Assembly: GCF_009911795.1 (NCBI RefSeq)
Contig: NZ_CP047898.1
Span: 3,472,001 to 3,536,000, forward strand
Direction: 5' to 3'
From: Pseudarthrobacter psychrotolerans
GTDB lineage: Bacteria > Actinomycetota > Actinomycetes > Actinomycetales > Micrococcaceae
DNA: 64,000 nucleotides
This document shows positions 6,424 through 56,904 of the stretch, piece by piece. The position numbers were made by a program, and so were the translations under genes. The notes under the pieces are model-generated. The model was not told the origin of the DNA, ran no database searches, and saw only the letters and a program-made list of their open reading frames with translations. The number at the start of each line of letters is the position of its first letter. Position 1 is the first letter of the stretch.

Positions 6424-7129
6424 CTAGTCTGCCTTTGGTTCCAGGGACCTGCGGCGTACGGCCACCAGTGCACCGGCGCCGAGCATCACGCCCAGGCCCG
6501 CGAGCCAGGTAGGAGCACTCTCAGCCCCGCCCACCGCGGTCTGCGCGTTGAAGCCCTGGTTGGTGCCCTGGCTGACAGCCACTGCCCCGGTGCCGGCTGG
6601 CGCCTGGACGGTCGCCGGTGCGGCGGGGGTCTGCACCGTGGGGGTGACTGTTGTGACCGGCGTCTGGACAACGACCGCTGACTCCTCCACCGGCGTCTTC
6701 ACCACGGCCGGCGGGACCACCACGGGTTCTTCTACGGGTGGGACGACGACGACGGGTGGGTCGACTACGACGACGGGTGGGTCGACTACGACGACGGGTG
6801 GGTCGACTACGACGACGGGTGGGTCGACAGGCGGGTAGACCGGAGGTTCTTCACCCGGAGGCAGCGGGGCACAGTTGGCGATGTAGGTTATCTTTCCCGC
6901 GTTCGTCCAGTTCAGCCCCCTGGTATGGACGTGTTCGGCGGAATGATGTCGGAGGGATGCCCGCCGTGGCCGTTCAGGCCGTTCACATTGAATTGAATTG
7001 CTTCCCAGCCCGTTCCGGTTTGTGCGCCGTCGTGGCAGACGATGACCATATTAGGAGCAGCCACGGCTGGTGCTGTCAGACTGATCAGCCCCAGCCCCAT
7101 GACCCCAGTGTTGCTAAGGTACGTTTCAT
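6424..7129 (-). pseudogene. Secreted repeat protein, likely sortase substrate; two frameshifts
   Basis: Reading from an ATG at 7129 (GGGAG seven bases upstream) and adding one base in each of two G runs (plus-strand C4 at 7103-7106 and C5 at 6916-6920) gives about 235 residues. It comprises a signal peptide (MKRTLATLG then VMGLGLISLTAPAVAA), an extracellular domain with the VCH...GHGGHPSDIIPP pattern seen in actinobacterial surface proteins, four PPVVVVD-type repeats, a Thr/Val/Pro-rich stalk, and a C-terminal hydrophobic helix with RRR. There is no LPxTG; the nearest candidate before the helix is NAQTAVGG. The sequence as given cannot encode it in one frame. The two losses look like homopolymer errors, but phase-variable decay is possible. 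Confidence 0.8.
6736..6828. repeat. 21-bp tandem repeat, about four units
   Basis: The unit GGGTGGGTCGACTACGACGAC recurs head to tail with the first copy diverged. On the minus strand it encodes the heptapeptide PPVVVVD of the surface protein stalk. Because the unit is a multiple of three, slippage would change stalk length without breaking the frame. Confidence 0.9.
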
Positions 7130-7347
7130 TGTTTTCTCCCCAGATTGTCTGAAACGGACCATGATGAGGGGGAGTAGCGGTGACTCTGAGTGCCCCAGCA
7201 GCACGGTCAGCTTGCTTGTCTGTTCAGGCTAGGGGCGGCGGACGGGTGCGGTCGCGGGTAGCAGGTACTCGTCTTTTTGCCCCATTGACCTGCGGCGATA
7301 CCTGCGTGTACGCGGAAACGGGAGCCCCTACTGGAGTGTTGCCACCC

Positions 7348-7376
7348 TTGAACGTGGACAGGGCGGCGCCTAACGT
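7348..7376 (+). promoter_or_regulatory. Sigma-70-like promoter
   Basis: TTGAAC (7348-7353) and TAACGT (7371-7376) are separated by exactly 17 bases and lie about 20 bases before the small gene that starts near 7396. A transcript from here would have a very short leader. Nothing else is recognisable between 7130 and 7395. Confidence 0.5.
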
Positions 7377-7395
7377 TGAAGCATACGAAAGGTGC

Positions 7396-7605
7396 GTGAC
7401 CGACATGGAAATCTACATGTGGTGGCTGGATCTGAACCTGCCAACCAAGGAATGGCTGCGGGAAAACCTCCGTGCGGCGGAACTGCCGCTGCCGGTGCTG
7501 CAGGGCATCGCCGAAGCCGGCGGCCCGCATCCGGGTACCCCGGTGGCTGTCCTCACCGAAGCCGACTGGGACTTCATCGAGACGCAGTCCGAATTCGTCG
7601 ACTGA
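7396..7605 (+). CDS. Small protein of unknown function
   Basis: A small acidic protein of 66-69 residues (MEIYMWWLDLNLPTKEWL..., ending ETQSEFVD) that I do not recognise. It has a tryptophan-rich start and a predicted helical middle, and no signal peptide or metal motif. The start could be GTG 7396 or ATG 7405; a GAAAGG box at 7387-7392 is slightly too near the first and slightly too far from the second. A promoter-like pair just upstream and G/C-biased third positions support a real gene. The larger frame from 7180 is not supported. Confidence 0.55.
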   Translation: MTDMEIYMWWLDLNLPTKEWLRENLRAAELPLPVLQGIAEAGGPHPGTPVAVLTEADWDFIETQSEFVD

Positions 7606-7723
7606 CGGGGCGCCGCCGGCACGGCCCATGAGTCCAGTCCGCGCCGGACCAATCCACTAGCCCGAGTCCACAAAGCGAAGAAAAGCGTTGCGGCCCTCCG
7701 GTCGTGGTGGTTGCATGGGGTGC

Positions 7724-8860
7724 ATGGCAACCGCAGAGAACTTTGTTTTAGCGATCGGGACCAAAAAGGGCCTCTGGCTGGCAACCAGCCAGGACCGGAA
7801 GCAATGGTCCTTCTCCGGCCCGCATTTTCTGATGAGCGAAATCCCCAGCATCGGGATCGACACTCGGGAGGGCCATACCCGGATAATGGTGGGCGTCAGG
7901 TCCGAGCACTGGGGCCCTACAGTGGCCCACTCCGATGACCTTGGCGCCACGTGGACAGAACCTGAACAGGGCGCCATCACGTTTCCCGAGGACACCGGCG
8001 CGGCAGTGGAGCGTATCTGGCAGATCTACCCGGACGCAGAGTCGCGGCCAGGGGTGGTGTGGGCAGGTGCCGAACCGATTTCGGTCTGGAAATCCACCGA
8101 CGGCGGTGAGCATTTCGAACTCAACCGCGGGCTGTGGGACCATCCTCATCGCAGAGATTGGGGTGCGGGCTACGGCGGCGCCGCGGCCCACTCCATCGTG
8201 GTGAATAGAGCGGGCGACAACGTCCACATCGCCATGAGCACCGGCGGCGTGTACCGCTCGCTCGACGGCGGGACCTCCTGGCAACCGCGGAACAAAGGGA
8301 TCTCGGTGCGCTTCATGCCTGACCCTTACCCGGAGTTCGGCCAGTGCGTGCACAAGATCGCTGCGGATGCCGTCGTCGAAGGCCGTCTGTATGCGCAGAA
8401 CCACCACGGTGTCTACCGCACGGATGACAGCGGCGAAAATTGGGACTCCATCGCTGAAGGACTTCCGGCCGACTTCGGTTTTGTGATGCTGACGCATCCG
8501 CGGCGGGAAGGCACAGCCTGGGTTGTTCCGCTGAAGGCCGACGGCGAGCGGATCCCCCCGGAGGGACACCTTGCGGTGCATCGGACGGACGACGCCGGCG
8601 GCACCTGGAAGAGGCTCGACGCAGGACTGCCGGAGCACGAGTACAACAGCGTGCTCCGCGATGCCGCAGCGGTTGACTCAGCTGAACCGGCCGGCGTCTA
8701 CTTCGGAACGCGAGGCGGGACGGTGTACGCCAGCGCGGACGAAGGGGAGACGTTTGCTGAAGTTGTCAGCCATCTCCCGGATGTCCTGTGTGTCCGCGCC
8801 GCCGTGGTCGCCGGGGCGGGACAGAGGGTGCCGGAAAATTCAGCGGCCCGCGGTGCCTGA
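7724..8860 (+). CDS. BNR/WD40-like repeat protein (sialidase-fold)
   Basis: A 378-residue cytoplasmic beta-propeller-type protein. Several BNR Asp-box-like repeats are visible: SDDLGATWTE, STDGGEHFE, SLDGGTSWQ, TDDSGENWD, TDDAGGTWK and SADEGETF, spaced as in sialidase and photosystem-assembly-like propellers. No signal peptide is present, so an extracellular glycosidase role is unlikely. The ATG at 7724 (MATAENFVLAIG) is chosen; an in-frame ATG at 7715 is also possible. The last eight bases overlap the MoaD-like gene, indicating translational coupling. The function is unknown. Confidence 0.85.
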   Translation: MATAENFVLAIGTKKGLWLATSQDRKQWSFSGPHFLMSEIPSIGIDTREGHTRIMVGVRSEHWGPTVAHSDDLGATWTEPEQGAITFPEDTGAAVERIWQIYPDAESRPGVVWAGAEPISVWKSTDGGEHFELNRGLWDHPHRRDWGAGYGGAAAHSIVVNRAGDNVHIAMSTGGVYRSLDGGTSWQPRNKGISVRFMPDPYPEFGQCVHKIAADAVVEGRLYAQNHHGVYRTDDSGENWDSIAEGLPADFGFVMLTHPRREGTAWVVPLKADGERIPPEGHLAVHRTDDAGGTWKRLDAGLPEHEYNSVLRDAAAVDSAEPAGVYFGTRGGTVYASADEGETFAEVVSHLPDVLCVRAAVVAGAGQRVPENSAARGA

Positions 8861-9140
8861 CATCAGCGTGGTACTTCCCAGCATCCTCCAGCCGCTGGCC
8901 GGCGGGCAGTCCATCCTGACTGCGCCCGCCGAAGGGACGGTGACGGTGGGAAGCCTGCTGGATTCGGTGACCGGGGGTTACCCGGTGCTGGCCAGGCGGC
9001 TGCGGGACGAAACAGGAGCACTTCGCCGGTACGTGAATATCTACGTGGCCGGTGACGAAGTGCGCCGGCTCCAGGGCCTGGAAACCGAAGTGTTGCCCGG
9101 GCAGGAGGTGCTGGTCATCCAGTCGGTGGCCGGAGGATAA
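8853..9140 (+). CDS. MoaD/ThiS-family ubiquitin-fold protein
   Basis: A 95-residue beta-grasp protein ending in a free Gly-Gly (SVAGG), the feature that lets MoaD/ThiS proteins be adenylated and thiocarboxylated as sulfur carriers. The body has the family's alternating strands and the VLPGQEVLVIQSVAGG ending. The GTG start at 8853 overlaps the preceding BNR gene by eight bases. No MoaE, MoeB or thiazole gene is nearby, so this is a stand-alone carrier whose partner is not evident; the coupled BNR protein is the obvious candidate. Confidence 0.85.
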   Translation: MPDISVVLPSILQPLAGGQSILTAPAEGTVTVGSLLDSVTGGYPVLARRLRDETGALRRYVNIYVAGDEVRRLQGLETEVLPGQEVLVIQSVAGG

Positions 9141-9278
9141 CGCCGAAGCGTTCTGTGAGCGGGCCGGCGGGCAGTCCTGACTGACTGCGCCCGCCGTCGT
9201 GGGTCCGGTTCCGCGTTGCAAGGTTACGGGGTGCAAGGGCACCGCAAGGAGGTTCTGCGCCAGCGGCCCGAAACCGGG

Positions 9279-9515
9279 TCAGGCAATCCGCCAGACGCTG
9301 CATTCGTCCGTATTGATCGCTTTCCGCGAGCCGGTGTGATGGTCCATGATCCAGACAACGCCGATTCCCGGTGCTGTCTCCTGGACGCGGCCGCGGCGGA
9401 TGACCACGTCGTCGTAGCTGGGGCCTACAGAGAGCCGGGCTTCGATTTCATCGCCGCGGTGGAGTTGGTCCAGGGCGCGGACTCTTGTTACATGGGCTTT
9501 GGCTTCCTTCAACAT
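9279..9515 (-). CDS. Small conserved protein of unknown function
   Basis: A 78-residue protein starting at ATG 9515 with AGGAGG five bases upstream, which makes this start much better than the 9557 frame start. The sequence (ALDQLHRGDEIEARLSVGPSYDD..., VVWIMDHHTGSRKAI) suggests a small beta-barrel with a conserved DHHTG stretch and no membrane segment. I do not recognise the family. It faces the MoaD-like gene and is divergent from the DNA ligase. Confidence 0.7.
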   Translation of the reverse strand: MLKEAKAHVTRVRALDQLHRGDEIEARLSVGPSYDDVVIRRGRVQETAPGIGVVWIMDHHTGSRKAINTDECSVWRIA

Positions 9516-9753
9516 CGGGGCCTCCTGGCTGGAGCTGGTGCCTGCGCTTGCCGGCACTTCCAGTGTGGCGGGGCAATGTTGCGCCTGCGTTTCCTCGACG
9601 TTAGGAACCGGTTAGTTCTCCGCGATCGATACGTTTCCGCCGGCATCATGGGATTCAGAGAGTGCCGCGCACCAACCCCGCCGGGGCTTTCAGCTGGGCA
9701 TTGTGCCTGTTCAGGCCTACCGCTGGAGGGTCCCCCGGACAACAATGGGCACT

Positions 9754-10828
9754 ATGCAACTTCCCGTGATGCCCCCGGTCCCGCCCATGCTCGCCAAAGC
9801 CGTCAGCGGGATACCGGACGGGCCCTTGAGCTATGAACCCAAATGGGACGGCTTCCGGTCCATCATTTTCCGGGACGGCGATGAGCTGGAGATCGGCAGC
9901 CGCAACGAAAAGCCCATGACCAGGTATTTTCCTGAGCTCGTGGAAGCCCTGAAGGAGAACCTGCCGCCCCGCTGTGTCCTGGACGGCGAGATTGTCCTGG
10001 TGGGACATCCGGCGACCGGCTGGATTTTGATGCCCTTCAGCAGCGCATCCATCCCGCCGCCAGCCGGGTGAAGCTTCTTGCCGAACAGACCCCCGCCAAG
10101 TTTGTGGCCTTCGACCTGCTGGCCCTGGGCGAGATCGACTACACCGGACGGCCCTTCGCCGAGCGTCGGGCAGCGCTGGAAAGGGCTCTCGCGGGCAGCA
10201 AGGCGCCTGTCCACGTCACGGCCGCGACCCAGGACAAGACGGTTGCTGAGCACTGGTTCGAGCAGTTCGAAGGTGCGGGCCTGGACGGGATTGTGGCCAA
10301 GCCCCTTGACGGCAGCTACCTGCCGGACAAACGCGCGATGTTCAAGATCAAACACGAACGCACGGCTGATTGCGTCGTGGCCGGCTACCGCGTGCACAAG
10401 AGCGGACCGGACGCGATCGGCTCGCTGCTGCTGGGCCTCTACAAGGACGACGGCGGCCTGGCCAGCGTGGGCGTGATAGGCGCCTTCCCCATGAAGCGCC
10501 GGCAGGAGCTGTTCGAGGAACTCCAGGCGCTGGTGACCGACTTCGACGGACACCCCTGGGCCTGGGCAAAGCAGGGGAAGGCGAACGCACCCCGCGCAAC
10601 GCGGAGGGCAGCCGGTGGAGCGCCGGCAAGGACCTGTCCTTTGTGCCGCTCCGGCCCGAACTGGTGGTGGAGGTCAGGTACGACCACATGGAAGGTGAGC
10701 GCTTCCGGCATACCGCCCAGTTTTCACGCTGGCGGCCGGACCGCGATCCCGGATCCTGCACCTTCGAACAGTTGGAGGAACCGGTCAGCTTCGACCTTGC
10801 CTCGGTCCTGGACACCGGCCGGCAGTAG
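9754..10828 (+). pseudogene. ATP-dependent DNA ligase (LigC-like), two frameshifts
   Basis: With one G restored at 10002-10004 and one at 10574-10577 this becomes a 358-residue ATP-dependent DNA ligase. The nucleotidyltransferase motifs are present: the lysine of EPKWDGFR (Lys30, adenylated), RNEKPMTRYFPEL, LDGEIVLV, FVAFDLLAL, DGIVAKPL and MFKIKHERTADCVVAG. An OB-fold ends with RYDHMEGERFRHTAQFSRWRPD. The length matches stand-alone LigC-type ligases used in repair, with no polymerase or nuclease fusion. The start at 9754 (MQLPVMPPV) is by family resemblance; ATG 9745 is an alternative. Both breaks are in G runs, so assembly error is likely. Confidence 0.85.
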
Positions 10829-10961
10829 GCGCCCGGTTCACGGAAGGCACCCAAGCCGCCGCCCGCCGTCGTACGTTCCTACGTTTCTGGCCGTGCGTTC
10901 CAGCCCGGTTGCTTCGCGCCGGCGTCGAACGTTCCAGTCCGCACGCACGGCGGGGCGCGGA

Positions 10962-10996
10962 AAAGCCCGGCGTGTCCTGGGGACATGCCGGGCTTT
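10962..10996. terminator. Bidirectional hairpin terminator
   Basis: AAAGCCCGGC pairs with GCCGGGCTTT and the stem continues inward through TGTCC/GGACA to about 16 base pairs with a three-base loop. A residues on the left and T residues on the right suit termination on both strands, between the convergent ligase and MHS transporter genes. Confidence 0.8.
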
Positions 10997-11063
10997 CACG
11001 TAAGCAACTGGGCAGGAGCGTCCGGGCTGTGACGTCCGAGCTGTAGTCGAGACCAGCGGGTAG

Positions 11064-12383: not shown

Positions 12384-12500
12384 GGAGTTCCTTAGGTGTG
12401 ACGACGTTGTCGCGGATGGATCTGGAGGGTCGCAGCCGCAGCGGCCTGAGTGGAGCTGGTGCGGTGCGGCTGGAGTCCGTTGAAAGACCCGGACCAGTAG

Positions 12501-12602
12501 CCACATGGTGGGAGCTACTTGTGCGATACAGCAATGATGGCTGTGAGGGCAGTCACTTGTCAAGAAAATAATCACCATCTAGAAATAGTTCCCACGATGT
12601 GG
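12501..12602. promoter_or_regulatory. Paired inverted repeats in divergent MHS/IclR spacer
   Basis: CCACATGGTGGGAGCT (12501-12516) and AGTTCCCACGATGTGG (12587-12602) are reverse complements with two mismatches, 70 bases apart. Each contains a smaller dyad CCAC-3-GTGG (12501-12511 and 12592-12602). The second ends only 12 bases before the IclR start. This geometry suits a regulator that binds twice and controls both divergent genes; the IclR protein encoded next door is the simplest candidate. Confidence 0.55.
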
Positions 12603-12614
12603 CAACATCGACGT

Positions 12615-13430: not shown

Positions 13431-13442
13431 ATAACTCTCGGA

Positions 13443-13459
13443 TGTTCGTATGTAGAACA
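13443..13459. promoter_or_regulatory. Candidate IclR operator before shikimate dehydrogenase
   Basis: TGTTCGTATGTAGAACA is a dyad with TGTTC and GAACA half-sites seven bases apart, about 110 bases upstream of the shikimate dehydrogenase start. The form resembles operators of IclR-type regulators of aromatic catabolism. A promoter for the long catabolic transcript is expected between here and 13570 but was not pinpointed. Confidence 0.5.
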
Positions 13460-13569
13460 AGGGTGCGAGAAGTGAACAAGTATTGTACTGTAATCCCAAT
13501 CACCCGACCCGCCGCGGCTGCCTCGAGCGCCGCCGCCCGCCGGGTGCCGTATCAAAAGGAGCTGCCCGG

Positions 13570-17227: not shown

Positions 17228-17228
17228 C

Positions 17229-23266: not shown

Positions 23267-24079
23267 ATGACCAACGCACCTGCAGATTCAAGGGCCGCTC
23301 CGCAGGCGAGTGACCAGTACGTGCAGTCGCTGGCGCGCGGGCTGGCCGTGATCCGGGCCTTTGATACCGACCACCCGGTCATGACCCTGACCGAGGTGGC
23401 GGCCCGGACGGACCTGACCCGAGCCACGGCCCGGCGCTTCCTGCACACCCTCGTTGAGCTGGACTACGTCCGGACCGACGGCAAGACGTTTGCGCTCACG
23501 GCCAAGGTCCTGCAGCTCGGCTACGCCTACCTCAGCGGGCTGTCCCTGCCGCAGCTGGCCCAGCCGCACCTGGAGGAACTGTCCCTCAAGCTGGGCGAAT
23601 CCACGTCTGCGGCGGTACTGGACGGCACGGACATCGCCTACATCGCCCGGGTGACCACCCGCCGCATCATGAACGTGGGCATCACCGTAGGCACCCGTTT
23701 CCCGGCCTACGCCACGTCCATGGGCAGGGTGTTGCTCGCGGCCCTGCCGCCCGCCGGACTCAAGGACTACCTGGCAGCGGCAGAGATCAAACCGCTGACG
23801 CCGCGCGCGCTGGGCACGGTCCCCGAGCTGCTGGCGGTGCTGGACACCGTCCGCGCCCAGGGCTGGTGCCTGCTGGACCAGGAGCTTGAGCTCGGGCTGA
23901 TGTCCGTCGCCGCGCCCGTGTACGACGGGCCAATCAAGGTGGTGGCCGCGGTGAACGTGTCCCTCCAGGCCCAGTCGGTGGCGGCCCGGCCGGACCCGGA
24001 GGCGTACCTGGCCTCGGCAGCCCGCGAAATCGTGGCGACCGCGAAGCTCATCTCGGCGGACCTCACCGCGCGGCGCTAG
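23267..24079 (+). CDS. pcaR: IclR-family regulator of protocatechuate catabolism
   Basis: A 270-residue IclR protein: winged helix (LARGLAVIRAFDTDHPVMTLTEVAARTDL with recognition helix TRATARRFLHTLVEL) and effector domain (YATSMGRVLLAALPP, GLMSVAAPVYDG). It is typical of PcaR/PcaU activators that respond to protocatechuate or 3-oxoadipate. ATG 23267 is preceded by AGGATTGG. The stop codon TAG forms part of the CTAG target where an IS701-like element is inserted, yet the protein is intact; sequence that normally follows pcaR now lies beyond 27.84 kb. Confidence 0.88.
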   Translation: MTNAPADSRAAPQASDQYVQSLARGLAVIRAFDTDHPVMTLTEVAARTDLTRATARRFLHTLVELDYVRTDGKTFALTAKVLQLGYAYLSGLSLPQLAQPHLEELSLKLGESTSAAVLDGTDIAYIARVTTRRIMNVGITVGTRFPAYATSMGRVLLAALPPAGLKDYLAAAEIKPLTPRALGTVPELLAVLDTVRAQGWCLLDQELELGLMSVAAPVYDGPIKVVAAVNVSLQAQSVAARPDPEAYLASAAREIVATAKLISADLTARR

Positions 24080-25482
24080 TACTACAGTCGCGTTTATGGG
24101 GTGTGTCCGCGGGCCTTGTAGTGACAGTGCCGGGCGCGGTGCTGGTGTTTTCTTCGCCAGGTTGAGTGTTCCAGGACGTGTTTCGGGCTGGTGGTGCGGT
24201 GCCAGACGAGCCGGACGAGCAGCCGCCTGATTTCCGGCAGTGAGAGCCGGATCAGTTCGCCGTCGGCGGCGGAAGGGCCCCTTTTTTGGAGCGGATCACG
24301 GTCAGGAAGGCCTGGGCGAACATGGAGAGGGTGATGTGCCGGTACCAGCCGGTGTATTGGCGGACCTGGTAGTGGTCCAGCCCTGTTTCGCCTTTGGAGG
24401 TTTGGAAGGTTTCCTCGATCGCCCAGCGGGCGCCGGCGATCCGCACCAACTCGGCAAGGGAGACCCGGTTGGGGCCGTGGCAGATGTAGTAGGCCAGATC
24501 GGTGGGGTCCCTCAGGGACCGGCGGGCCAGCAGCCAATGTTCTCCGGTTTCGGCGGGTCCATTGATGCGGGTCCGTGCCCAGGAGTATCGACGATCGCCC
24601 TTGGTTCCTGCCCCGGCCGTGCGGGTCCGCCAGACATTGCCGCGCAGGGAAGCGATGAGTTTATCCGCGCGCCATTGCTCGCCCGGCCAGGCGGTGGGGG
24701 CGATGATGTTTTGGTTCATGGGAACCGCCAGCACGTAGTGCAGACCTCTGGCTTCCAGACGGCGGCGCAGCCCTGTGTGCTGTCCGTAAACCGCGTCCCC
24801 GGTGGCCCAGCGGGCAGGGATCCCGGCATCCAGGGCGCGGTCGACCATGTTCGCGGCCAGCACCGGTTTCGTGCCGAATTCCCGGGTTTTGGGGATCCCG
24901 GCCCGGGTGCATCTTTCCCGGTCATCGACCCAGGTTTTGGGCAGGTAAAGTTCCCGGTCCAGCAAGGTGCGCCCGGCCGGGGCGGAGTACGTCAGGAACA
25001 CCCCGATCTGGCAGTTCTCCACCCGCCCCGCGGTGCCCGAATACTGGCGTGCGACCCCAGCCGAAGCGGCGCCCTTCTTGAGGAATCCGGTCTCGTCGAT
25101 AATCAGGATCCCGCCGGGATCGCCCAGGTGGCCTTTGACGTAGGTGAACAAATCATCCCGCACAGCATCCGGGTCCCAGTCAGTGGTCGAGAGCAGGCGC
25201 TGCATGCCATCCGGGGTCCCGTGCCCGGCGCGTTCAGACAGGGTCCAGGAATTTTTCCGTTCCTCATCCGAAAGCAGCCCGCGCACATACCCAACAGCAT
25301 TCCGCCGGGGTTCAGACCGGACAAACCGCGGCCCAATAAGATCGCCGATTTCTTCCAGACCTTCGGCCCACTCTTCTACCTCCGCCACACAAATATCATC
25401 ACTCACCACCAACGATTAACAGGCCACGAGCCGAAAGTCCGATTAAACCGCCGAGACTGCCTAAATAAACGCGACTGTAGTA
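24080..25482 (-). mobile_element. IS701-like insertion sequence, copy A
   Basis: A 1,403-base element with terminal inverted repeats TACTACAGTCGCGTTTAT / ATAAACGCGACTGTAGTA, bounded on both sides by CTAG (24076-24079 and 25483-25486), the four-base YTAR-type duplication typical of IS701. It carries one transposase on the minus strand. Copy B, in inverted orientation at 26437-27839, has the same length and differs in the compared coding region by a single base (Ser versus Arg at codon 4). Confidence 0.92.
24252..25412 (-). CDS. IS701-family transposase (copy A), C-terminus frameshifted
   Basis: A 386-residue DDE transposase related to IS701 (DUF4338/transposase-11-like core): IIDETGFLKKGAASAGVARQYSGTAGRVENCQIGVFL carries the first Asp, WATGDAVYGQH the second, ARWAIEETFQTSKGETGLDHYQVRQY the Glu. 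The frame stops at PPPTAN, but the shifted frame continues with conserved IS701 C-terminal sequence (LPEIRRLLVRLVW...HYKARG) to a stop near 24094 in the terminal repeat. One extra C on the minus strand opposite GGG 24275-24277 would restore about 440 residues. The first start is TTG, with GTG codons just inside. Confidence 0.85.
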   Translation of the reverse strand: MVVSDDICVAEVEEWAEGLEEIGDLIGPRFVRSEPRRNAVGYVRGLLSDEERKNSWTLSERAGHGTPDGMQRLLSTTDWDPDAVRDDLFTYVKGHLGDPGGILIIDETGFLKKGAASAGVARQYSGTAGRVENCQIGVFLTYSAPAGRTLLDRELYLPKTWVDDRERCTRAGIPKTREFGTKPVLAANMVDRALDAGIPARWATGDAVYGQHTGLRRRLEARGLHYVLAVPMNQNIIAPTAWPGEQWRADKLIASLRGNVWRTRTAGAGTKGDRRYSWARTRINGPAETGEHWLLARRSLRDPTDLAYYICHGPNRVSLAELVRIAGARWAIEETFQTSKGETGLDHYQVRQYTGWYRHITLSMFAQAFLTVIRSKKGALPPPTAN

Positions 25483-25486
25483 CTAG

Positions 25487-26432
25487 GGTGTGTTGCTAAA
25501 CCGTTGTGGGGTTAGTTTCCGGCAGGCTGGATGCATGGCAGCAAGGCAGGAGATTTCCGACGAGGCATGGGCCGTGATGGCGCCGCATTTCCCGGTATGG
25601 AAGGGTAACGGGCGTCCGATCATGGATATGCGCCGGACGGTCGAAGCTATCGTGTGGCGGTTCCGTACCGGGGCGCCCTGGCGTGATGTTCCTGAGAGGT
25701 TCGGGAACTGGAACTCGATCTATGGTCGTTTCGCGGACTGGTCCAGGGACGGAACGTGGGCAAACGTTCTCGCGGCCGCGCAGGCTGCCGGCCAGCGTGC
25801 CGGTGATGTTGACTGGACAGTATCCGTGGACGCGACGATCACACGCGTGCACCAGCATGGTGCCACCCTTCCGCGCGTCACAGGGGGCCCCGCCAAATTA
25901 CAAGAAACTCGGCGATGAAGAGCCCGCGGACCACGCGATCGGCAAGTCCAGGGGCGGAATGACGTGCAAAATCCACCTTGCCACGGACGGGAAGGGACGG
26001 CCGCTGGGCCTGGTCCTCACAGCCGGTCAGGCCGCTGACACTTCGTTTTTCCAGACCGTACTGGCGAACATCTCAGTCACCGGCGGATCCCGGGGACGGC
26101 CACGCACGCGGCCCGACAGGGTGCTGGCAGACAAGGCCTATACCTCCAGCGCCAACCGCGGCTACCTGGCCAGCAGAGGAATCAAAATCACGATTCCGGA
26201 GCGTTCCGACCAGATCTCAGGACGGGCCCGGCGAGGCTCCAAAGGCGGACGGCCCCGATCCTTCGACAAGGAAGCCTACAAAGGCCGAAACGTCGTTGAA
26301 CGCTGCTTCAACCGGCTCAAGCAATGGCGTGGCATCGCGACCAGAAGCGACAAAACAGCGCGCAGCTACCTCGCCGGCGTCACCCTCGCCTCGGCCCTAA
26401 TCTGGATCAAATCAGTGGTTTAGCAACACACC
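25487..26432 (+). mobile_element. IS5-family (IS427-group-like) insertion sequence
   Basis: A 946-base element with 16-base terminal inverted repeats GGTGTGTTGCTAAACC / GGTTTAGCAACACACC, lying directly between the two IS701-like copies. It is flanked by CTAG on each side (25483-25486 and 26433-26436), shared with its neighbours. It encodes one transposase in two overlapping frames. Confidence 0.9.
25535..26423 (+). CDS. IS5-family transposase in two overlapping frames
   Basis: The first frame (ATG 25535 to stop 25918) encodes the N-terminal domain (EISDEAWAVMAPHFP, WRFRTGAPWRDVPERFG, and the first catalytic Asp in WTVSVDATITRVHQHG). The second frame, open to 26423, carries the rest (EPADHAIGKSRGGMTCKIHLA, VLADKAYTSSANR with the second Asp, RNVVERCFNRLKQWRGIATR with the Glu). 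The second frame is +1 relative to the first and the switch must occur around CACAGGGGGCCCCGCC (near 25880-25895). Such split frames joined by ribosomal slippage are common in this group. The required direction here is +1 (or -2), the opposite of the single-base deletions seen elsewhere in the window. Confidence 0.85.
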
Positions 26433-26436
26433 CTAG

Positions 26437-27839
26437 TACTACAGTCGCGTTTATTTAGGCAGTCTCGGCGGTTTAATCGGACTTTCGGCTCGTGGCCTGT
26501 TAATCGTTGGTGGTGAGGGATGATATTTGTGTGGCGGAGGTAGAAGAGTGGGCCGAAGGTCTGGAAGAAATCGGCGATCTTATTGGGCCGCGGTTTGTCC
26601 GGTCTGAACCCCGGCGGAATGCTGTTGGGTATGTGCGCGGGCTGCTTTCGGATGAGGAACGGAAAAATTCCTGGACCCTGTCTGAACGCGCCGGGCACGG
26701 GACCCCGGATGGCATGCAGCGCCTGCTCTCGACCACTGACTGGGACCCGGATGCTGTGCGGGATGATTTGTTCACCTACGTCAAAGGCCACCTGGGCGAT
26801 CCCGGCGGGATCCTGATTATCGACGAGACCGGATTCCTCAAGAAGGGCGCCGCTTCGGCTGGGGTCGCACGCCAGTATTCGGGCACCGCGGGGCGGGTGG
26901 AGAACTGCCAGATCGGGGTGTTCCTGACGTACTCCGCCCCGGCCGGGCGCACCTTGCTGGACCGGGAACTTTACCTGCCCAAAACCTGGGTCGATGACCG
27001 GGAAAGATGCACCCGGGCCGGGATCCCCAAAACCCGGGAATTCGGCACGAAACCGGTGCTGGCCGCGAACATGGTCGACCGCGCCCTGGATGCCGGGATC
27101 CCTGCCCGCTGGGCCACCGGGGACGCGGTTTACGGACAGCACACAGGGCTGCGCCGCCGTCTGGAAGCCAGAGGTCTGCACTACGTGCTGGCGGTTCCCA
27201 TGAACCAAAACATCATCGCCCCCACCGCCTGGCCGGGCGAGCAATGGCGCGCGGATAAACTCATCGCTTCCCTGCGCGGCAATGTCTGGCGGACCCGCAC
27301 GGCCGGGGCAGGAACCAAGGGCGATCGTCGATACTCCTGGGCACGGACCCGCATCAATGGACCCGCCGAAACCGGAGAACATTGGCTGCTGGCCCGCCGG
27401 TCCCTGAGGGACCCCACCGATCTGGCCTACTACATCTGCCACGGCCCCAACCGGGTCTCCCTTGCCGAGTTGGTGCGGATCGCCGGCGCCCGCTGGGCGA
27501 TCGAGGAAACCTTCCAAACCTCCAAAGGCGAAACAGGGCTGGACCACTACCAGGTCCGCCAATACACCGGCTGGTACCGGCACATCACCCTCTCCATGTT
27601 CGCCCAGGCCTTCCTGACCGTGATCCGCTCCAAAAAAGGGGCCCTTCCGCCGCCGACGGCGAACTGATCCGGCTCTCACTGCCGGAAATCAGGCGGCTGC
27701 TCGTCCGGCTCGTCTGGCACCGCACCACCAGCCCGAAACACGTCCTGGAACACTCAACCTGGCGAAGAAAACACCAGCACCGCGCCCGGCACTGTCACTA
27801 CAAGGCCCGCGGACACACCCCATAAACGCGACTGTAGTA
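26437..27839 (+). mobile_element. IS701-like insertion sequence, copy B
   Basis: The same 1,403-base element as copy A in opposite orientation, flanked by CTAG at 26433-26436 and 27840-27843 and with the same terminal repeats. The right flank (GGGCCCGTCACGG) would join directly to the pcaR stop if the whole 3.76-kb block were removed. Confidence 0.92.
26507..27667 (+). CDS. IS701-family transposase (copy B), C-terminus frameshifted
   Basis: It encodes 386 residues identical to copy A except Arg4 for Ser4. The same apparent base loss occurs in the G4C3 stretch at 27638-27644; with one C restored the protein would run to a stop at 27825 inside the right terminal repeat. That both copies share the break means it is inherited within the family, a reproducible context-dependent sequencing error, or a programmed site. 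Confidence 0.85.
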   Translation: MVVRDDICVAEVEEWAEGLEEIGDLIGPRFVRSEPRRNAVGYVRGLLSDEERKNSWTLSERAGHGTPDGMQRLLSTTDWDPDAVRDDLFTYVKGHLGDPGGILIIDETGFLKKGAASAGVARQYSGTAGRVENCQIGVFLTYSAPAGRTLLDRELYLPKTWVDDRERCTRAGIPKTREFGTKPVLAANMVDRALDAGIPARWATGDAVYGQHTGLRRRLEARGLHYVLAVPMNQNIIAPTAWPGEQWRADKLIASLRGNVWRTRTAGAGTKGDRRYSWARTRINGPAETGEHWLLARRSLRDPTDLAYYICHGPNRVSLAELVRIAGARWAIEETFQTSKGETGLDHYQVRQYTGWYRHITLSMFAQAFLTVIRSKKGALPPPTAN

Positions 27840-27843
27840 CTAG

Positions 27844-28126
27844 GGCCCGTCACGGTCAGGTAGCGTCGAGCGGCCGCCGTCTGGCTCATTTTCAGGTCGA
27901 AATCCCGCCGGGCTTTTGCATGGCGGCGGCGACGCCGGGACGACGAGCCTGCGGGTCCAGCTGCAAGAACCTCCAAGGCGCGAGCCTGTTCGGCAGGAGG
28001 ATCCACCAATTTGCGAAATTCTCTTGCAATTGTTTTTGCCACGTCGGATGATCATCTTGTGCTCGATGGGGGGCGCGAAGTTGCTCGCTTGGGAGCACCT
28101 GGAAATGGGGGGGGGCGGCATGTCTG
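27844..28126. other. No convincing gene between IS block and DUF4288 ORF
   Basis: This stretch contains only short overlapping frames on both strands with no family resemblance, and a run of nine G residues at 28107-28115. A minus-strand frame from GTG 28042 has plausible composition but no ribosome site and runs into the insertion element, so it may be a remnant truncated or frameshifted near the insertion. Confidence 0.5.
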
Positions 28127-42522: not shown

Positions 42523-43193
42523 TTACCCCCGGGCGCCGGTGGGGTCCTCGGCGGTCGGATCTGCAAGAGCGAGGCCGCCCACCGGGCTCCCGTCCCAATG
42601 GATCAACTTCCAGCCGGCGCCGGGGTCCCCTTCCAAGGCCACGATGCCGGTGTTGGACAGGACATGCCGGGCCGCGAACTCATGGTCGGCGCCGGCGGCG
42701 CGGAGCCCTGTCCAGGTGCGGATGGCGGCGCCATGACTCACCACGGCCGCGACGGCGGAGTTCCCGTTGCTCGCCGCGCGCTCGGCAATCCGGGTGATGG
42801 CGGCGTCGAACCGCTCAAAAAATTCGTGGCCGTCCGTGCCCGCCGGCATCCGGCGGTCCAGGTCACCGGCTGCCCACGCGAACACCGTGCCCATGTAGCG
42901 CATGTGCGACTCATGATCGGTCAGTTTCTCCAGTGCCCCTGCTTCGATTTCGTGCAGACCGTCCAGGACTTCAACGTCAAGCCCGTGGAGCCGTGACAGC
43001 GGGGCGGCCGTGATCTGGGTCCGCAGAAGCGTCGATGCGTACAGTGCCCCTATCTGCTCGTTCGCCAGGGACCGCGCCATGGCCTCGGCCTGGCGTTCGC
43101 CCAGCTCGGTCAGCCCGGGCCCTGGGTGGGCAGTGTCCAGCTGGCCGAGTACGTTGCCGGGGTCTGTCCGTGGCGGATGAGCAGCAGCTTCAT
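42523..43193 (-). pseudogene. Histidine phosphatase family protein, frameshifted near N-terminus
   Basis: The N-terminal catalytic motif LLLIRHGQTPA is encoded from ATG 43193 (TGGAG upstream), but the frame is lost at about 43153-43158. The rest continues in another frame: NVLGQLDTAHPGPGLTELGERQAEAMARSL, the second catalytic region VSHGAAIRTW and the C-terminus. Adding one base between the codons for Pro-Ala and Asn restores 223 residues of a typical phosphoglycerate-mutase-like phosphatase. The break may be a sequence error. Confidence 0.85.
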
Positions 43194-43285
43194 GACTCCA
43201 GTTTCGCATCCGGCGGCGCGATCCGGCATCTGCGTGCCGGGCCGACGTCGAACAGGGCGCGGCACCGCCGTCGTGCGTTTATGGT

Positions 43286-44761: not shown

Positions 44762-44947
44762 GTGCTGATTCTTTCATGAACTTTTCACTGCCGCTTAAGC
44801 CGTCCGTCTGATGTGCACAACGGGGGGACTTGTCCACATAGCCGACGGCGGTGCTTCCGCCGTGTGGGCGGCTTTCCGTAGCGTCGGGGTTCAGGGCTTG
44901 GCCTTGACGGATCAGATAGTCATACGGGTAGCCGGAGGGGGACGGGC

Positions 44948-45248
44948 ATGGGCAGTGACGTGACGGCAGCCGACATGGCGGCATGCATGTCCCGCGGTTA
45001 TGAGGTTCAGCAGTTGGCGGCCCGGGTTGACCTTTGCTTGGGGAGGGTGGAAAAGGTCCTCGGCGGCTTTCGCGAGATCCAGCTCCTGGACTGGCAGTCT
45101 CCCGCGGGCGGGCCTACCGGAATTCGGTAGCCCTCCAGGAGGCGGCGCTTGGAAGGGCGCGCGTCAGGCTCGAGGACGCGTTGGCTTCGGTGCGACGCCA
45201 CGCGCAGGCGGTGGGAGCTTCGGCCGGCAACCCGGCGGGCGGTACTGA
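44948..45248 (+). pseudogene. WXG100-like protein, frameshifted
   Basis: The first 50 codons encode a helical N-terminus (EVQQLAARVDLCLGRVEKVLGGFREIQLLDWQSPAG); the next part, in another frame, reads RAYRNSVALQEAALGRARVRLEDALASVRRHAQAVGAS, a second long helix. Restoring one C near 45106-45112 joins them into a helix-turn-helix hairpin with Trp at the turn. A second loss before 45246 would put the stop TGA exactly over the next start (TGATG) and give 100 residues, the classic size. The second loss is my inference. It probably partners with or escorts the following hydrolase protein for type VII export. Confidence 0.55.
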
Positions 45249-46687: not shown

Positions 46688-46695
46688 TCCGCCCG

Positions 46696-48386: not shown

Positions 48387-48428
48387 ATATATGCCAACAG
48401 GGGAATGCATTCCTCGGGCGGCATATAT
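48387..48428. promoter_or_regulatory. Nested dyad upstream of the 2-oxoacid dehydrogenase operon
   Basis: A perfect palindrome GGAATGCATTCC (48402-48413) lies exactly at the centre of outer arms ATATATGCC (48387-48395) and GGCATATAT (48420-48428); both share the centre 48407.5. The 42-base dyad ends about 47 bases before the E1-alpha start, where an operator would cover the promoter. No regulator gene is adjacent; Lrp- or TetR-type control would fit the operon. More dyads (CCGCATGCGG) follow up to the start. Confidence 0.6.
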
Positions 48429-48475
48429 CCCAGCGACATTGCAATGCATCCGCATGCGGCAAGCAAGGAGACGGT

Positions 48476-49772
48476 ATGGGCGCCACACATCTGCCCTCCA
48501 CCGAGTTCGATGAGACAGCGGCAGACGACCAGCTCGAGGCTGCGGCCGAGGCCCAACTGGGCGGCCCGGCCGAGCCTATGGTGCAGCTGTTGGCGCCTGA
48601 CGGGACCCTGGGGACAGACCCGGTCTTCTCTGCGTATGCGGATCGGCTGGACGGTGAAAAGCTGCGCGGCTTCTACGCTGACATGGCCAAGATCCGCCGC
48701 TTTGATGTGGAGGCAACCGCGCTCCAGCGCCAAGGCCAGCTAGCCCTGTGGGTCCCGCTGACCGGCCAGGAGGCTGCGCAGATCGGCTCCGGGCGGGCCA
48801 GCCAGCCTCAGGACTACATCTTCCCCACGTACCGCGAGCATGGCGTGGCGCTGACCCGCAATGTGGACCTCGCGGAGCTCCTGCGCCAGTTCCGCGGCGT
48901 CTCGAACGGTGGCTGGAACCCGAAGGACACCAACTTCCATCTCTACACCCTGGTCCTCGCCGCGCAGACACCGCACGCTGTCGGCTACGCCATGGGAATC
49001 CAGCGGGACCAGAAGCTCGCGGCCGCTGCAGTCGCCGCGGGCGGGGCGGCGGACGGGCCGGCCGAGCCCAAGGCCGCCGTGATGGTCTACTTCGGTGACG
49101 GTGCCAGTTCCGAGGGCGACGTCCACGAATCCATGGTGTTCGCCGCCTCCTACAACGCGCCGGTGGTGTTCTTCTGCCAGAACAACCACTGGGCCATCTC
49201 TGTTCCCAGCTCGGTGCAGACCCGCATTCCGCTGTCCAACCGTGCCAAGGGTTACGGTTTCCCGGGAATCCGGGTGGACGGCAACGATGCGATCGCCGTC
49301 CACGCCGTGACCGAGTGGGCGCTCGAACACGCCCGTGAGGGCAAGGGCCGGTGCTGATCGAGGCGTTCACTTACCGCGTCGGTGCGCACACCACGGCTGA
49401 TGACCCCACGAAGTACCGGGAATCCGCCGAGGAAGCCCTATGGCGGGCCAAGGATCCGCTGGACCGCCTGAAAAAGTACCTGCGGGCCGAGGGACTGGCC
49501 GACGACGCGTTCTTTGAACAGGTTAAGGCCGACGGCGACGAACTCGCCGCCTACGTCCGCAAGACCACCTACGATTTTGAGACCCCGGACATCCGGACCG
49601 CCTTCGCCAACACCTATGTCGAGGCCCACCCCTGGTGGCCGAGGAACTGGCCTGGTTTGAGGAATACAGCGCAGGGTTCGCCGAAACGACGGAGCGCGAC
49701 AGCGCTGGACCTGACAGTGCTGGACCCGGCAGCCCGGACCCCGATGAAGCAGCGACAGGAGTGGCCCGCTGA
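48476..49772 (+). pseudogene. 2-oxoacid dehydrogenase E1 alpha subunit, two frameshifts
   Basis: This gene encodes the thiamine-diphosphate subunit of a pyruvate or branched-chain 2-oxoacid dehydrogenase. The ThDP motif is GDGASSEGDVHESMVFAAS...NNHWAIS. The frame ends prematurely at GKGRC; adding one C at 49348-49349 gives GKGPVLIEAFTYRVGAHTT, and a second C in the C4 run at 49629-49632 gives HPLVAEELAWFEEYSAGF. The restored 432-residue protein ends at a TGA overlapping the E1-beta start. ATG 48476 follows AAGGAG. Loss of an operon-leading subunit of an intact complex is unlikely, so sequence error is favoured. Confidence 0.88.
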
Positions 49773-50752: not shown

Positions 50753-50810
50753 GCGCAGGCACCTTCCCCGCTCACGCTTGCCGCTCACGCTTCCCGCGAA
50801 AGAGGACACC

Positions 50811-52277: not shown

Positions 52278-52914
52278 GGACGCCGGGACCAAGAACATCA
52301 AAACCGAGAACCAAGCTGCCATTCGCGCAAGGAACCGAACAGCCAGATGGCTGACAGAGGTGTTCCAGCCGCCGGTGGTGGTGACGATTCAGCTGCTGAT
52401 CAGCCCAGTGATCGAGGCCGGGTTCCCCGGCACCATCGGATATGGAGCCTTGGCTGCTTTGTTCGTGTGCGTGCTGCCGTTGGTCGCGCTCCTCGTGCTC
52501 GTGAGGATGGGCAGGGTCACGGACCACCACGTCAGCAACCGCAAACAGCGCGCGCCCGTGCTGCTGATGGCGCTAGGGTTTGTGATCGCAGGCCTGGTGG
52601 TGTTGCAAGCCACCGGTGCGCCGCGAAGCGTGCTGGTCATGGTGCTGGCCATCGTCGCCGGCATCATTGTGCTGGCCGCCGTGAGCCCCTTCTGGAAGAT
52701 CAGCGGCCACGCGGCCGCGGTATCGTCGGCAGCGGTTATTTCCGTCCTGATGATGGGGCCGGCGTGGCTGCCACTGGTGCTGTTGGTTCCCGCTGTCGGC
52801 TGGTCCCGCGTAGTGCTTCGTGCACATACGTTGGCGCAGGTAGTGGCCGGTTCGCTTTTCGGCGGCCTGGTGATGGCCGGCCTGTGGTGGCTCCTGCGCG
52901 GCTGGATCCTCTAG
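52249..52914 (+). CDS. PAP2-like membrane phosphatase
   Basis: An integral membrane protein of up to 221 residues with about five helices and degenerate phosphatidic-acid-phosphatase type 2 motifs: [10 protein letters not shown] (motif 2) and [20 protein letters not shown] (motif 3, with the catalytic His). The N-terminal KxxxxxxRP motif appears as RKQRAPVLL. The start is uncertain: TTG 52249 overlaps the E2 end by 29 bases and GTG 52360 would give a shorter protein. Neither has a clear ribosome site, so a nearby sequence error is possible. Confidence 0.65.
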
Positions 52915-52929
52915 CAGTAACCCTGCGTG

Positions 52930-53277
52930 TCAGTAACCGTAGGCGGAGTAGGCCGTCAGCATCTCGACCATCTCGGGATTCCCGCCCATGGCGCCCGCCC
53001 AGGCGGCGTATGTTGCGAAAGCCAGGCCACCGAGGATCAGGGCAATGCCTGAGACGGCCCCGAAGAATTTCCAGTCCTCGCGCAGGACACTCTCCAAGGT
53101 CTCCGGCAGGCGCAGTCCCGGCGCGATGAGGTTGGGTGCGCTGTCCACGGAGCCGTCATCCAGCAGGGCAATGACGCGGCCGTTGCCGCGGTCCACCCGC
53201 ATGGAGCAGATGTGGTTGCCGTGGCGGGCCAGAAGGATGTCATGGCCTACGAGTTGGCGGCGCTGAAGAGTAATCAA
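52930..53277 (-). CDS. Small protein with one C-terminal-half membrane helix
   Basis: About 115 residues starting at TTG 53277 with AGGGG upstream. The N-terminal half is hydrophilic with a short beta-rich stretch (HICSMRVDRGNGRVIALLDDGSVDSAPN); one hydrophobic helix (FFGAVSGIALILGGLAFATYAAW) follows, and the end is tyrosine-containing (YSAYGY). I do not recognise the family. The longer frame from 53703 overlaps the universal stress gene in antisense and is rejected. Confidence 0.55.
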   Translation of the reverse strand: MITLQRRQLVGHDILLARHGNHICSMRVDRGNGRVIALLDDGSVDSAPNLIAPGLRLPETLESVLREDWKFFGAVSGIALILGGLAFATYAAWAGAMGGNPEMVEMLTAYSAYGY

Positions 53278-53432
53278 GGGGGCCCCTATGGCTGGAGTGG
53301 AGAGTGGTTGTCCGCTCCGTTGAGGGCACTCCCATTTTATCGCCTGGCCGGTGCTGAAACCGGCCTTTGAGGGGTGAGAACGGACACCATGCACTGTCCC
53401 GGTGCGGCCGGTGCACGGTGTCCCGTTGTCAG

Positions 53433-53861
53433 TTAGTCGGCGTCGTAAGTGTTGGCGATGTAGACGTCGCACGTGGCATTGTGGGCCACGCTGTTGGCCA
53501 CGCTTCCCAGGACCCGGCCGATGCCGCGCATCCGCCGGTTGCCCACCACGATCATCTTGGCGTCCAAGCGCTCGGCTTCTTTGATGAGCGCTTCGGCAGG
53601 CTTGCCACGGGCGGCCGAATACGTGACCTTGATCGAGCCGGCCAGCGCCTCGGCCACTGTCTTGGCAACATGCTCGGCACCGTCGGCGTCGGAAACGATC
53701 CACTGGTCGCTGCCCGAGCCGAAGATCTCGGTGCGGTCGCTGTCGAAGGCTGAGACGACGTGCAGCGAGGCGCCCACGGCGGCGGCAAGATCCCGGGCCG
53801 ATTCGGCGGCCTTCTTGGCGGTGCCGCTGCCGTCAACCCCCACAACAATAATTCCGCTCAT
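53433..53861 (-). CDS. Universal stress protein (UspA domain)
   Basis: A 142-residue single UspA domain: IIVVGVDGSGTAKKAAESA start with the nucleotide-contacting Asp, and GNRRMRGIGRVLGSVANSVAHNATCDVYI carrying the ATP-binding G-x2-G-x9-G-S pattern. ATG 53861 has AAGGAG eight bases upstream. This is the second Usp in the window and is not an obvious paralogue of the first. Confidence 0.92.
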   Translation of the reverse strand: MSGIIVVGVDGSGTAKKAAESARDLAAAVGASLHVVSAFDSDRTEIFGSGSDQWIVSDADGAEHVAKTVAEALAGSIKVTYSAARGKPAEALIKEAERLDAKMIVVGNRRMRGIGRVLGSVANSVAHNATCDVYIANTYDAD

Positions 53862-53914
53862 GCTTTGTACTCCTTGTTCAGTATCAATAGTGGCCACACT
53901 CAGTCCGGCCAACG

Positions 53915-55218
53915 TTACAGCGCTGCAAGGGCTTCTCGCAGTACCGGGGCCAAACGGCGGACACCTTCCTTGATAGCGTCCGGCGGCACCGCGCTGAACG
54001 CGAGCCGCAGTTTATTGGACGGCGCATCAGACGTGGTGAAAGCAGCCCCGGGGATAAAGACGACGCCGGCATCGATCGCTTTCTGCAGCAGGGGATAGGT
54101 ATCCACGCCTTCGGGCAGGGTGACCCAGACGAAGAAGCCGCCCTCCGGGCTGGTCCACCTGGTGCCGGCGGGCATGTGTTCGTCCAGGGCTGCGAGCATT
54201 GCCGTGCATCGTTCGGCGTAAAGTCCGCGGTAGGTCTCGATCTGGCCCTTCCAGTCATAGTCCCTGAGGTAGGCGGACACCAGCATCTGGTTCAGCGTCG
54301 GAGGGCAGAGCGTGACAGATTCGGATGCCAGGTAGTAGCGCCGCTGGAGGTGCTCCGGAACCAGCGCCCAGCCGATGCGCAGACCAGGGGCAAAGATCTT
54401 GGAGAAGGACCCCATATAGATGACATCCGCCGGGTTGGCCGCGCGGAGCGGTTCCAGCGGCTCACCGTCGAACCGCAGGAGCCCGTAGGGGTTGTCCTCC
54501 AGTACCAGAATATTCGCGTTCCGGCATATATCAACCACACGCTGACGGCGTTCCCGGGCCAGGGTAATGCCGGAGGGGTTATTGAAGTTCGGGATGGTGT
54601 AGAGGAACTTGATGTTCTTCCCGGCCGTCTGGAGCGCGGCGATCCTGGCCTCCAGAAGCTCAGGCACCAGGCCGTCGTCGTCCATTTCCACGGTGGCCAC
54701 CTCCACCTGGTAAGCCTCAAACGTATTGAGGGCGCCCACATACGTGGGGTTCTCCACCAGCACCACGTCCCCCGGGTTGCAGAAGACCTTGGTGGCCACA
54801 TCCTGGGCGGACTGGGAGCCTGCCGTGATCACCACGTTCTGCGGGATCGCGTCCAGAATTCCTTCTGCCGCCATCACCTCGCAGATCTGGGTGCGCAGTT
54901 CTTCCGTGCCCTGCCCGCCGCCGTACTGCAGGGCGGTGAGCCCTTCGTCGGCGATGATGCCGGCAGCCGTGGCGGCCAGCCGCTGAAGCGGAAGGGATTG
55001 CAGGTACGGGCTGCCCCCGGCAAGGGACACCAGTCCGGGGCGCATCGAGATGTCAAAAACGTCCCGCACCGCTGATTGCTTAATGTTCGCTGCGCGCTCC
55101 GAAAACAGCGCCTCGTGGGATGGGCGGCGCGATGGGCGGACGTGGCCGCGCGCTCGATGGCATCAATGGCTTCGGCCGGTAGCTGCACTGCGCCGGCATC
55201 AATTGTTTCGTGGCTCAC
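53915..55218 (-). pseudogene. PLP-dependent aminotransferase (MocR/KAT-II-like fold), frameshifted N-terminus
   Basis: A fold-type I aminotransferase of the 2-aminoadipate/LysN group: LVSLAGGSPY, GGQGTEELR, ITAGSQSAQDV, YTIPNFNNPSG (cofactor Asn/Pro), and the Schiff-base lysine in YMGSFSKIFAPGLRIGW. The main frame starts at 55069, but conserved N-terminal sequence (HETIDAGAVQLPAEAIDAIERAA...) lies in another frame. One C restored at plus-strand GGG 55117-55119 joins them as AAHPHEALFSERAANIKQSAVRD and gives 434 residues from GTG 55218. It is not a MocR regulator because no winged helix precedes it. Confidence 0.85.
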
Positions 55219-55274
55219 ATTCTCAGGATACAGCCGACAGTTGCCGATCAGGCAACATCTGTTGATCAATCACG

Positions 55275-56133
55275 CTACTTGAGGCTCAGGGCTTCGGTCA
55301 GCCCCACGCCGTTGATGTAGACCTCGGCGCGGATGGCACCAACCGAGGCGACGGCAGTTTGTGTGAGCTGGGCCTCGATGCGGGGGATGTCGCACACCCC
55401 CGCCGGGCGGATCGAGCCGGACAGGTACGCGGTCACGGTGCTGCCGTCGAAGGTGCCGGACAGGAATGTGAGAGTGGAGCCGGACAGGGCGTTGTACAGC
55501 CCGGGTGCCGGCTTTGCTGATCCGTCCAGCAATGCGCGCATTGCGGAGGCGAGGGGCTCCGTGGATCCGGGCATGGACCTGCGGACCCCGGCCAGGCTGT
55601 CATTGCAGCCAAAGCGCACCCCTCCGGCGCCGCCGTCGTCGAGCAGTACGTAGTAGGCCGTCACCGTCTGGGTACCGGGGGCTGGCCAGCGGCCGGCTCG
55701 GCTGGCGGCGGCGCCGAAGGCTCCGCGGCCGGCGATGGGCTTACCCCAACGGCCGTAGTCGTACCGGCTACCGTTCCGCCGCCGGGAGCGGGAGTCCCGG
55801 GCGCGCCCGTCCCGGACCCTGGAGCGTTGACCGGGCTCCGCTCCGATGTTGCCCGCGCCCCGCCGGACGCTTCGCCTGAAGGCTCGGGGATGGAGGGGCG
55901 GACGGACTGGTGGCTTCGGGGGGCCCAGCGGTGGCCGGCGGCGGTGCTTGTGGCTGGGGAATTGGAACCAGGGGCGGCTGGGCGGGGTCGTAGCGTTCTA
56001 TGGAGGTTGCGCCGGCCGGGACGCCGCTGCCGGCAGGCGGGTTGGAGGCGGGGGCGCAGCCTCCCAGCCACAGCGGAAGCGTTAGTGCTGCCGCCGTCGC
56101 CATCAGCTTTCCGGCGCTCCGCCTGCCTGCCAT
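55275..56133 (-). pseudogene. GerMN-like domain lipoprotein, two frameshifts
   Basis: The start at ATG 56133 encodes a lipoprotein signal (LTLPLWLGGCAPAS, lipobox Cys26) and a long Pro/Ala/Ser-rich linker. After one base restored in the G6 run 55918-55923 the linker continues (SVRPSIPEPSGEASGG, VNAPGSGTGAPG). After one more in the G5 run 55677-55681 it enters a C-terminal domain (GTQTVTAYYVLLDDGGAGG, MRALLDGSAKPAPGLYNAL, RAEVYINGVGL) resembling GerMN. GerMN lipoproteins occur widely outside spore formers and are unassigned. The restored length is 286 residues. Confidence 0.75.
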
Positions 56134-56283
56134 GTCCGCACCGCGTTCCCGTGCCTAATGCTGTCCGTGCATTAAACGTTACGGCGGTCCCTCAACCCTG
56201 AACATGCCCGCGCGGTACCGGTTGGAACAAGACTTGGTCACGTACGCGGGCCCTGGACCCATTCGTGCTCACGGCGAGATAAC

Positions 56284-56319
56284 AAATGCCCCGGACACCT
56301 TTCGGTGCCCGGGGCATTT
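56284..56319 (-). terminator. Hairpin terminator after FMN reductase gene
   Basis: A 15-base stem (AAATGCCCCGGACAC against GTGCCCGGGGCATTT, one mismatch) with a six-base loop; A residues to the left give U residues in the minus-strand transcript. It ends the reductase transcript that stops at 56348. Confidence 0.8.
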
Positions 56320-56347
56320 GGATGCCTGGCGCTGCTGCGAGGCTGCC

Positions 56348-56904
56348 TTACGCTGCCGGCTGCGCGGCGGCGAGTGCGTCGAAGACGCCCTTGATCTGCT
56401 CCACAACCTCGGCGTCGTCCTTCGGGTGCAGTTCTGCAAAGCGGACCATGGAGCCCGGGACGGCGAGCTTGACGTCCTCAAGCACCCGGGCGCCGGCAAT
56501 GCCCACTGCCTTGCGGGCTTCGTCCTGGGCCCACACGCCACCGAACTGGCCAAATGCGGTACCGACGACGGCGGTGGGCTTGCCGGAGAGGGCGCCGGCG
56601 CCGAAGGGGCGGGACAGCCAGTCGATGGCGTTCTTCAGCGATGCGGGCACCGTGCCGTTGTGCTCCGGGGTCACCAGGAGGAGGGTGTCTGCTTCATTGG
56701 CGGCGGCGCGGAGGCGGCGGCAGCGGCGGGAACCTGGCCCTCGACGTCGATGTCCTCGTTGTAGAACGGGATGTTGCCCAGGCTTTCGTGGATGACCACT
56801 TCAATCTGCTCGGGGGCGTTCAGCTGGATGGCTTCGGCCAGCTTCTGGTTGGTGGATTCGGCGCGGAGGCTGCCAACAAGGGTAAGGACGGTGCTTTTCG
56901 ACAT
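56348..56904 (-). pseudogene. NAD(P)H-dependent FMN reductase, frameshifted
   Basis: A flavodoxin-like NADPH-FMN reductase: TLVGSLRAESTNQKLAEA (FMN phosphate loop), NIPFYNEDIDVEGQVPAAAAA, then after the shift TPEHNGTVPASLKNAIDWLSRPFG and AVVGTAFGQFGGV. One base restored at GG 56713-56714 (plus strand) makes 185 residues with LRAAANEADTLLLVTPEHN in one frame. ATG 56904 follows AAGGAG. It is divergent from a TetR regulator with a palindrome between them, so control by that repressor is likely. The first-frame fragment alone would not be functional. Confidence 0.85.

Follow-up and report, generated by a model that had tools for sequence, protein, structure and literature searches.

The window analysed here is a stretch of 64,000 nucleotides from Pseudarthrobacter psychrotolerans, corresponding to positions 3,472,001-3,536,000 of the main contig (4.96 Mb) in a genome that totals 5.17 Mb (three contigs, 65% GC). 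A preliminary description, made from the letters alone, held that at least eight genes in it are broken, and a frame change is indeed present in the given sequence of all eight that it named. They encode a secreted surface-type protein, an ATP-dependent DNA ligase, a histidine phosphatase superfamily protein, a small protein, a pyruvate/2-oxoacid dehydrogenase E1 alpha subunit, a class I/II aminotransferase, a putative lipoprotein and an NADPH-dependent FMN reductase. The window also contains two 1,431-base insertion-sequence-like copies (24072-25502 and 26417-27847), which are 100% identical, inverted and each equipped with a DDE transposase frame; the 914-base stretch between them contains part of another transposase.

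The best-matching named relatives of the source genome are Arthrobacter and Pseudarthrobacter, which places it in Arthrobacter sensu lato, and the top match in the ligase search, at 87%, was Arthrobacter sp. Hiyo4 (G044, AP014718.1). A 20,977-base segment of the AP014718.1 record is present in G044 without a mismatch. Coding-like frames from 25 relatives were mapped to the window, giving 44 ortholog groups; the surface protein and the small gene were examined separately. In four groups, namely the ligase, E1 alpha, aminotransferase and FMN reductase, almost every relative is split over two or three frames; a few other groups are split in single relatives (1/3, 1/2, 1/13 and 3/21). Twelve sites had been proposed as single-base losses and ten of these were confirmed by comparison with relatives, the remaining two being those of the putative lipoprotein gene. 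The ligase gene (9745..10828, forward strand) falls into three frames against 15/15 mapped relatives and, in an alignment of 17 sequences that includes 16 relatives, its frame changes near 10004 and 10575 lie at 10004-10005 and 10575-10576 (first placed at 10002 and 10574). E1 alpha (48476..49769, forward) occupies two or three frames against 21/21 mapped relatives, with changes at 49344 and 49631 in an alignment of 22 sequences (first placed at 49348 and 49629). The aminotransferase (53915..55224, reverse strand), which matches PF00155, is in two frames against 18/19 mapped relatives, and an alignment of 21 sequences puts the change at 55118-55130, near the gene start (first placed at 55117). 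The FMN reductase (56342..56904, reverse) is in two frames against 18/18, and its change at 56713 was recovered exactly where it had been predicted (alignment of 21 sequences). Fragments flanking the breaks hit one and the same family in the ligase (DNA_ligase_A_M on both pieces), E1 alpha (E1_dh on two pieces) and FMN reductase (PF03358 on both pieces), and the copies in the relative G004 score above the NF006078 cut-off for the ligase and the TIGR03181 cut-off for E1 alpha. The histidine phosphatase (42523..43194, reverse), whose longer piece carries PF00300, is split in only 1/19 in the frame mapping because its break comes about 11 codons into the gene; the change is clear at about 43162 in an alignment of 22 sequences (first placed at 43155).

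The other three genes carry weaker labels. The surface-type protein (6424..7129, reverse) has, by eye, a signal-peptide-like start, Pro/Val-rich repeats and an anchor-like end, and its frame changes near 7103 and 6916 were both confirmed by pairwise alignment with 6 of 8 matching relatives, each with a single open frame here, alongside tblastn pieces. For the small gene (44939..45243, forward), which had been called WXG100-like, the loss expected at 45108 was found at 45106-45109, and the frame change is spanned by tblastn pieces of relatives' proteins including those of G004, G044, G015, G013 and G016. A tentative second break at 45239 was rejected, as the small gene ends there and the next gene starts. 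In the putative lipoprotein (55275..56133, reverse), described as GerMN with losses at 55677 and 55918, tblastn pieces show a net frame change between the 5' and 3' parts, which two losses fit, and support the break itself rather than its exact sites. Codon statistics in the middle of the gene favour the frame that two losses require by about 8 log units; because this middle is of low complexity, a single gain is a possible alternative. The intact G004 copies of the surface protein, lipoprotein and small protein are without Pfam or NCBIfam match, as are the pieces of the surface protein and lipoprotein scanned against Pfam in the source genome, so that these three names are weaker than first claimed.

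The breaks share a direction and a context. Each of the 14 events confirmed in coding sequence is a loss, in agreement with the earlier claim that the direction is always a loss, and no in-frame gain was confirmed; the 14 comprise the ten in the window and four elsewhere (L097:978, L097:3948, L097:16057 and L104:2738). Omitted from this set were L097:1134 and L097:5443 (ragged alignment), L104:425, L104:4411 and L104:4608 (upstream of starts), window positions 9517 and 16423 (near gene starts) and 45728 and 49705 (variable stretches), together with the lipoprotein pair. Nearly all the sites had also been described as lying in or next to short G or C runs, and 13 of the 14 touch a G/C run of at least 3, the sole exception being 56713 with a run of 2. 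Of 20,000 positions drawn at random from the window genes, 14.9% do so (p 2e-10); with a tolerance of 3 bases the proportion rises to 31.6% (p 3e-6). Runs of at least 4 are touched by 7/14 confirmed losses versus 3.8% of random positions in window genes.

Losses are also more frequent in the source genome than in the control genomes. A first, looser count was noisy (12 losses and 8 gains in the source genome, 40 and 7 in Hiyo4, 1.1-7.3 events per 10 kb in other relatives), and a strict filter, applied alike to all genomes and with an edge rule of 45 columns on each side, was therefore used instead. The loose-count gains of the source genome lay upstream of a start (13534, 13553), in a neighbouring-gene overlap (22449, 22451), at a gene start (47141), within the lipoprotein gene (two) or in a ragged stretch (6083). 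Under the strict filter, three stretches of the source genome, together 56.5 kb of aligned columns, contain 12 losses and 4 gains: 6 and 2 in the window (29 genes, 27.2 kb), 4 and 1 around hisF, and 2 and 1 around nadE, the last two stretches having been selected via scan hits in those genes and thus giving no unbiased rate. By inspection 10/12 of the losses are clear, L097:5443 being in ragged alignment and L104:4411 upstream of a start, while all 4 gains are upstream of start codons. The histidine phosphatase site itself fails this filter by the edge rule. For the 24 control genomes pooled, 596.8 kb of columns contained 21 losses and 15 gains, a rate about one fifth of that in the source genome and without strong direction.

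The breaks are not local to the window, and similar ones occur genome-wide. An alignment-free frame-switch scan of 944 kb of the source genome (734.9 kb predicted coding; window and plasmid pieces included) returned 40 losses and 6 putative gains. The same scan of the 24 control genomes returned 6 losses and 10 gains in 697 kb (613.6 kb predicted coding), with the caveat that the scan was trained on control-genome genes, a bias that favours the controls. Sensitivity was low: only 3/10 confirmed window losses were reported as non-natural switches (10005, 10550 and 56713), and 49350 was labelled a natural overlap. Since most known window sites were missed, the scan undercounts.

The breaks are almost certainly assembly errors, and the genes intact in the organism. 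The consensus would count short G/C runs one base too few, and each undercounted run would shift the reading frame so that the gene looks broken; with three contigs and a 4.96 Mb chromosome, the cause would presumably lie in the reads or the consensus of a long-read assembly. Systematic homopolymer undercalling, as first proposed, is thus supported by the one-way losses, their G/C-run context, their occurrence across the genome and the fact that essential genes are split too, as described below. At the window sites where it was aligned, Hiyo4 has a full frame.

That the genes are real pseudogenes, lost via one-base deletions under, for example, a raised deletion rate, is very unlikely. True slippage also happens at G/C runs, and the ligase, FMN reductase and surface protein could perhaps be dispensable, but the scan's 40 losses against 6 gains and the identity of further broken genes argue otherwise. 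Four of these genes, all picked from scan hits, were followed across the relatives. nadE, encoding NAD synthetase, is in two pieces in the source genome and in one piece in 24/24 relatives; the only other nadE match in the source genome is a weak one that falls short of the family cut-off and also has its counterparts among the relatives, and the nicotinamide phosphoribosyltransferase domain NAMPT_N, a mark of nadE bypass, has no match there. mraY is likewise in two pieces versus one piece in 24/24 relatives (G024 has two copies), and its only other match in the source genome is below cut-off. Both nadE and mraY are essential, the latter being required for the cell wall, and their splitting therefore indicates that the breaks are not real losses. 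Meanwhile, hisF is split in the source genome and whole in 24/24 relatives, and asd is split and whole in 23/24. The exception is G018, where asd is in two pieces (G018:C1:1514996-1516103) in a single-contig 3.6 Mb assembly that may carry similar errors. Furthermore, the relaxed selection expected in pseudogene decay was not seen in the five broken window genes tested, whose dN/dS values of 0.05-0.12 versus G015, G004 and G013 equal those of intact genes (median 0.10-0.11; 22, 21 and 18 genes against the three relatives; a single intact gene had an implausible value of 6.2 versus G015, probably through an alignment fault). The broken genes tested are still under as much purifying selection as their intact neighbours, which pseudogene decay does not explain; from the letters alone, too, the pattern had been called unlike scattered pseudogene decay.

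Full proteins could in principle still be made from the given sequence if -1 frameshifting were programmed or tolerated, or if transcription slipped at G/C runs. The confirmed steps do run in the direction that a slip by -1 could correct, as do the switches of transposases in the same scan. Programmed frameshifting is known in the IS3 group, and 3 of the 40 scan losses are copies of one transposase (L086:214, L189:14356 and L276:9449; HTH_Tnp_1 followed by rve) that switch at the same motif, which is probably ordinary programmed -1 frameshifting of this kind. As an account of the other breaks it is exceedingly improbable, since in the relatives a single open frame runs through these places, leaving no conserved signal, and the affected genes are functionally unrelated. 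Were the sequence true, both the source genome and Hiyo4 would carry hundreds of -1 breaks at short G/C runs, essential genes included, and would need genome-wide slippage to restore the frame in transcription or translation, a state of affairs that is scarcely credible.

Two results do not favour assembly error. The run-length spectrum of the source genome is within the spread of the relatives and not clearly depleted of long G/C runs, and the five rRNA loci, each compared over 3,026 bases, are free of indels, where a density of 1-3 losses per 10 kb predicts 1.5-4.5 of them. The intact rRNA genes may reflect the pooling of reads from identical copies. Both results are compatible with sparse errors and a pooled repeat consensus, yet lend assembly error no support. 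Users of this assembly would wrongly score many genes as lost, by extrapolation hundreds if the 944 kb scanned are typical.

Gene-fragmenting indel errors of long-read assemblies are the subject of Kastor (PMC12007338), which concerns nanopore R9.4 data. The errors it describes resemble those found here in being single-base deletions that fragment genes, mostly in homopolymers of 2-8 bases, and in being detected via relatives. They differ in that A/T runs are the commonest context despite 59% GC, whereas in the source genome (65% GC) the losses are at G/C runs.

Another counterpart is the related Hiyo4, whose report (PMC4712596) describes an assembly of PacBio RS II reads by the Sprai pipeline. 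In the window genes (28 genes, 26.1 kb) the strict filter found 24 losses and 0 gains in Hiyo4, 20/24 of the losses being at G/C runs of at least 3, and the frame-switch scan returned 17 losses and 4 gains. The two genomes thus share losses at G/C runs, those of Hiyo4 being losses only (24/24 under the strict filter), and differ in density, Hiyo4 losses being about four times denser (24 in 26.1 kb versus 6 in 27.2 kb, strict filter). The same error in Hiyo4 bears on a published claim of adaptive loss: in PMC4712596, nonsense mutations in Hiyo4 desA and desB, together with siderophore-gene loss in three other strains, were interpreted as adaptation to iron-rich, tsunami-flooded soil, the cluster being said to be absent from Hiyo1, Hiyo6 and Hiyo8. 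The main text of PMC8171050, which names Hiyo4 or Hiyo8, contains neither 'frameshift' nor 'sequencing error'.

At the Hiyo4 locus (L266:4191-7240) one-base-type losses were found once in desA and twice in desB, one of the three within a four-column gap, and the published nonsense mutations coincide with these three losses. No break in the des genes of five other aligned genomes passes the strict filter, and the G004 copies of the four genes match Pyridoxal_deC, Lys_Orn_oxgnase, Acetyltransf_8 and IucA_IucC. Three losses in 3.07 kb of gene match the 2.8 expected from the Hiyo4 background (24 in 26.1 kb), so the published desA/desB loss is probably an assembly artefact, a reading that applies to Hiyo4 only and leaves Hiyo1, Hiyo6 and Hiyo8 aside. 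desC and desD are whole, and dN/dS of the Hiyo4 genes versus three genomes is 0.11-0.17 for desA and desB and 0.12-0.25 for desC and desD. PMC4712596 also reports exceptionally large CDS counts (5,120 in 3.78 Mb), such as fragmented genes would yield.
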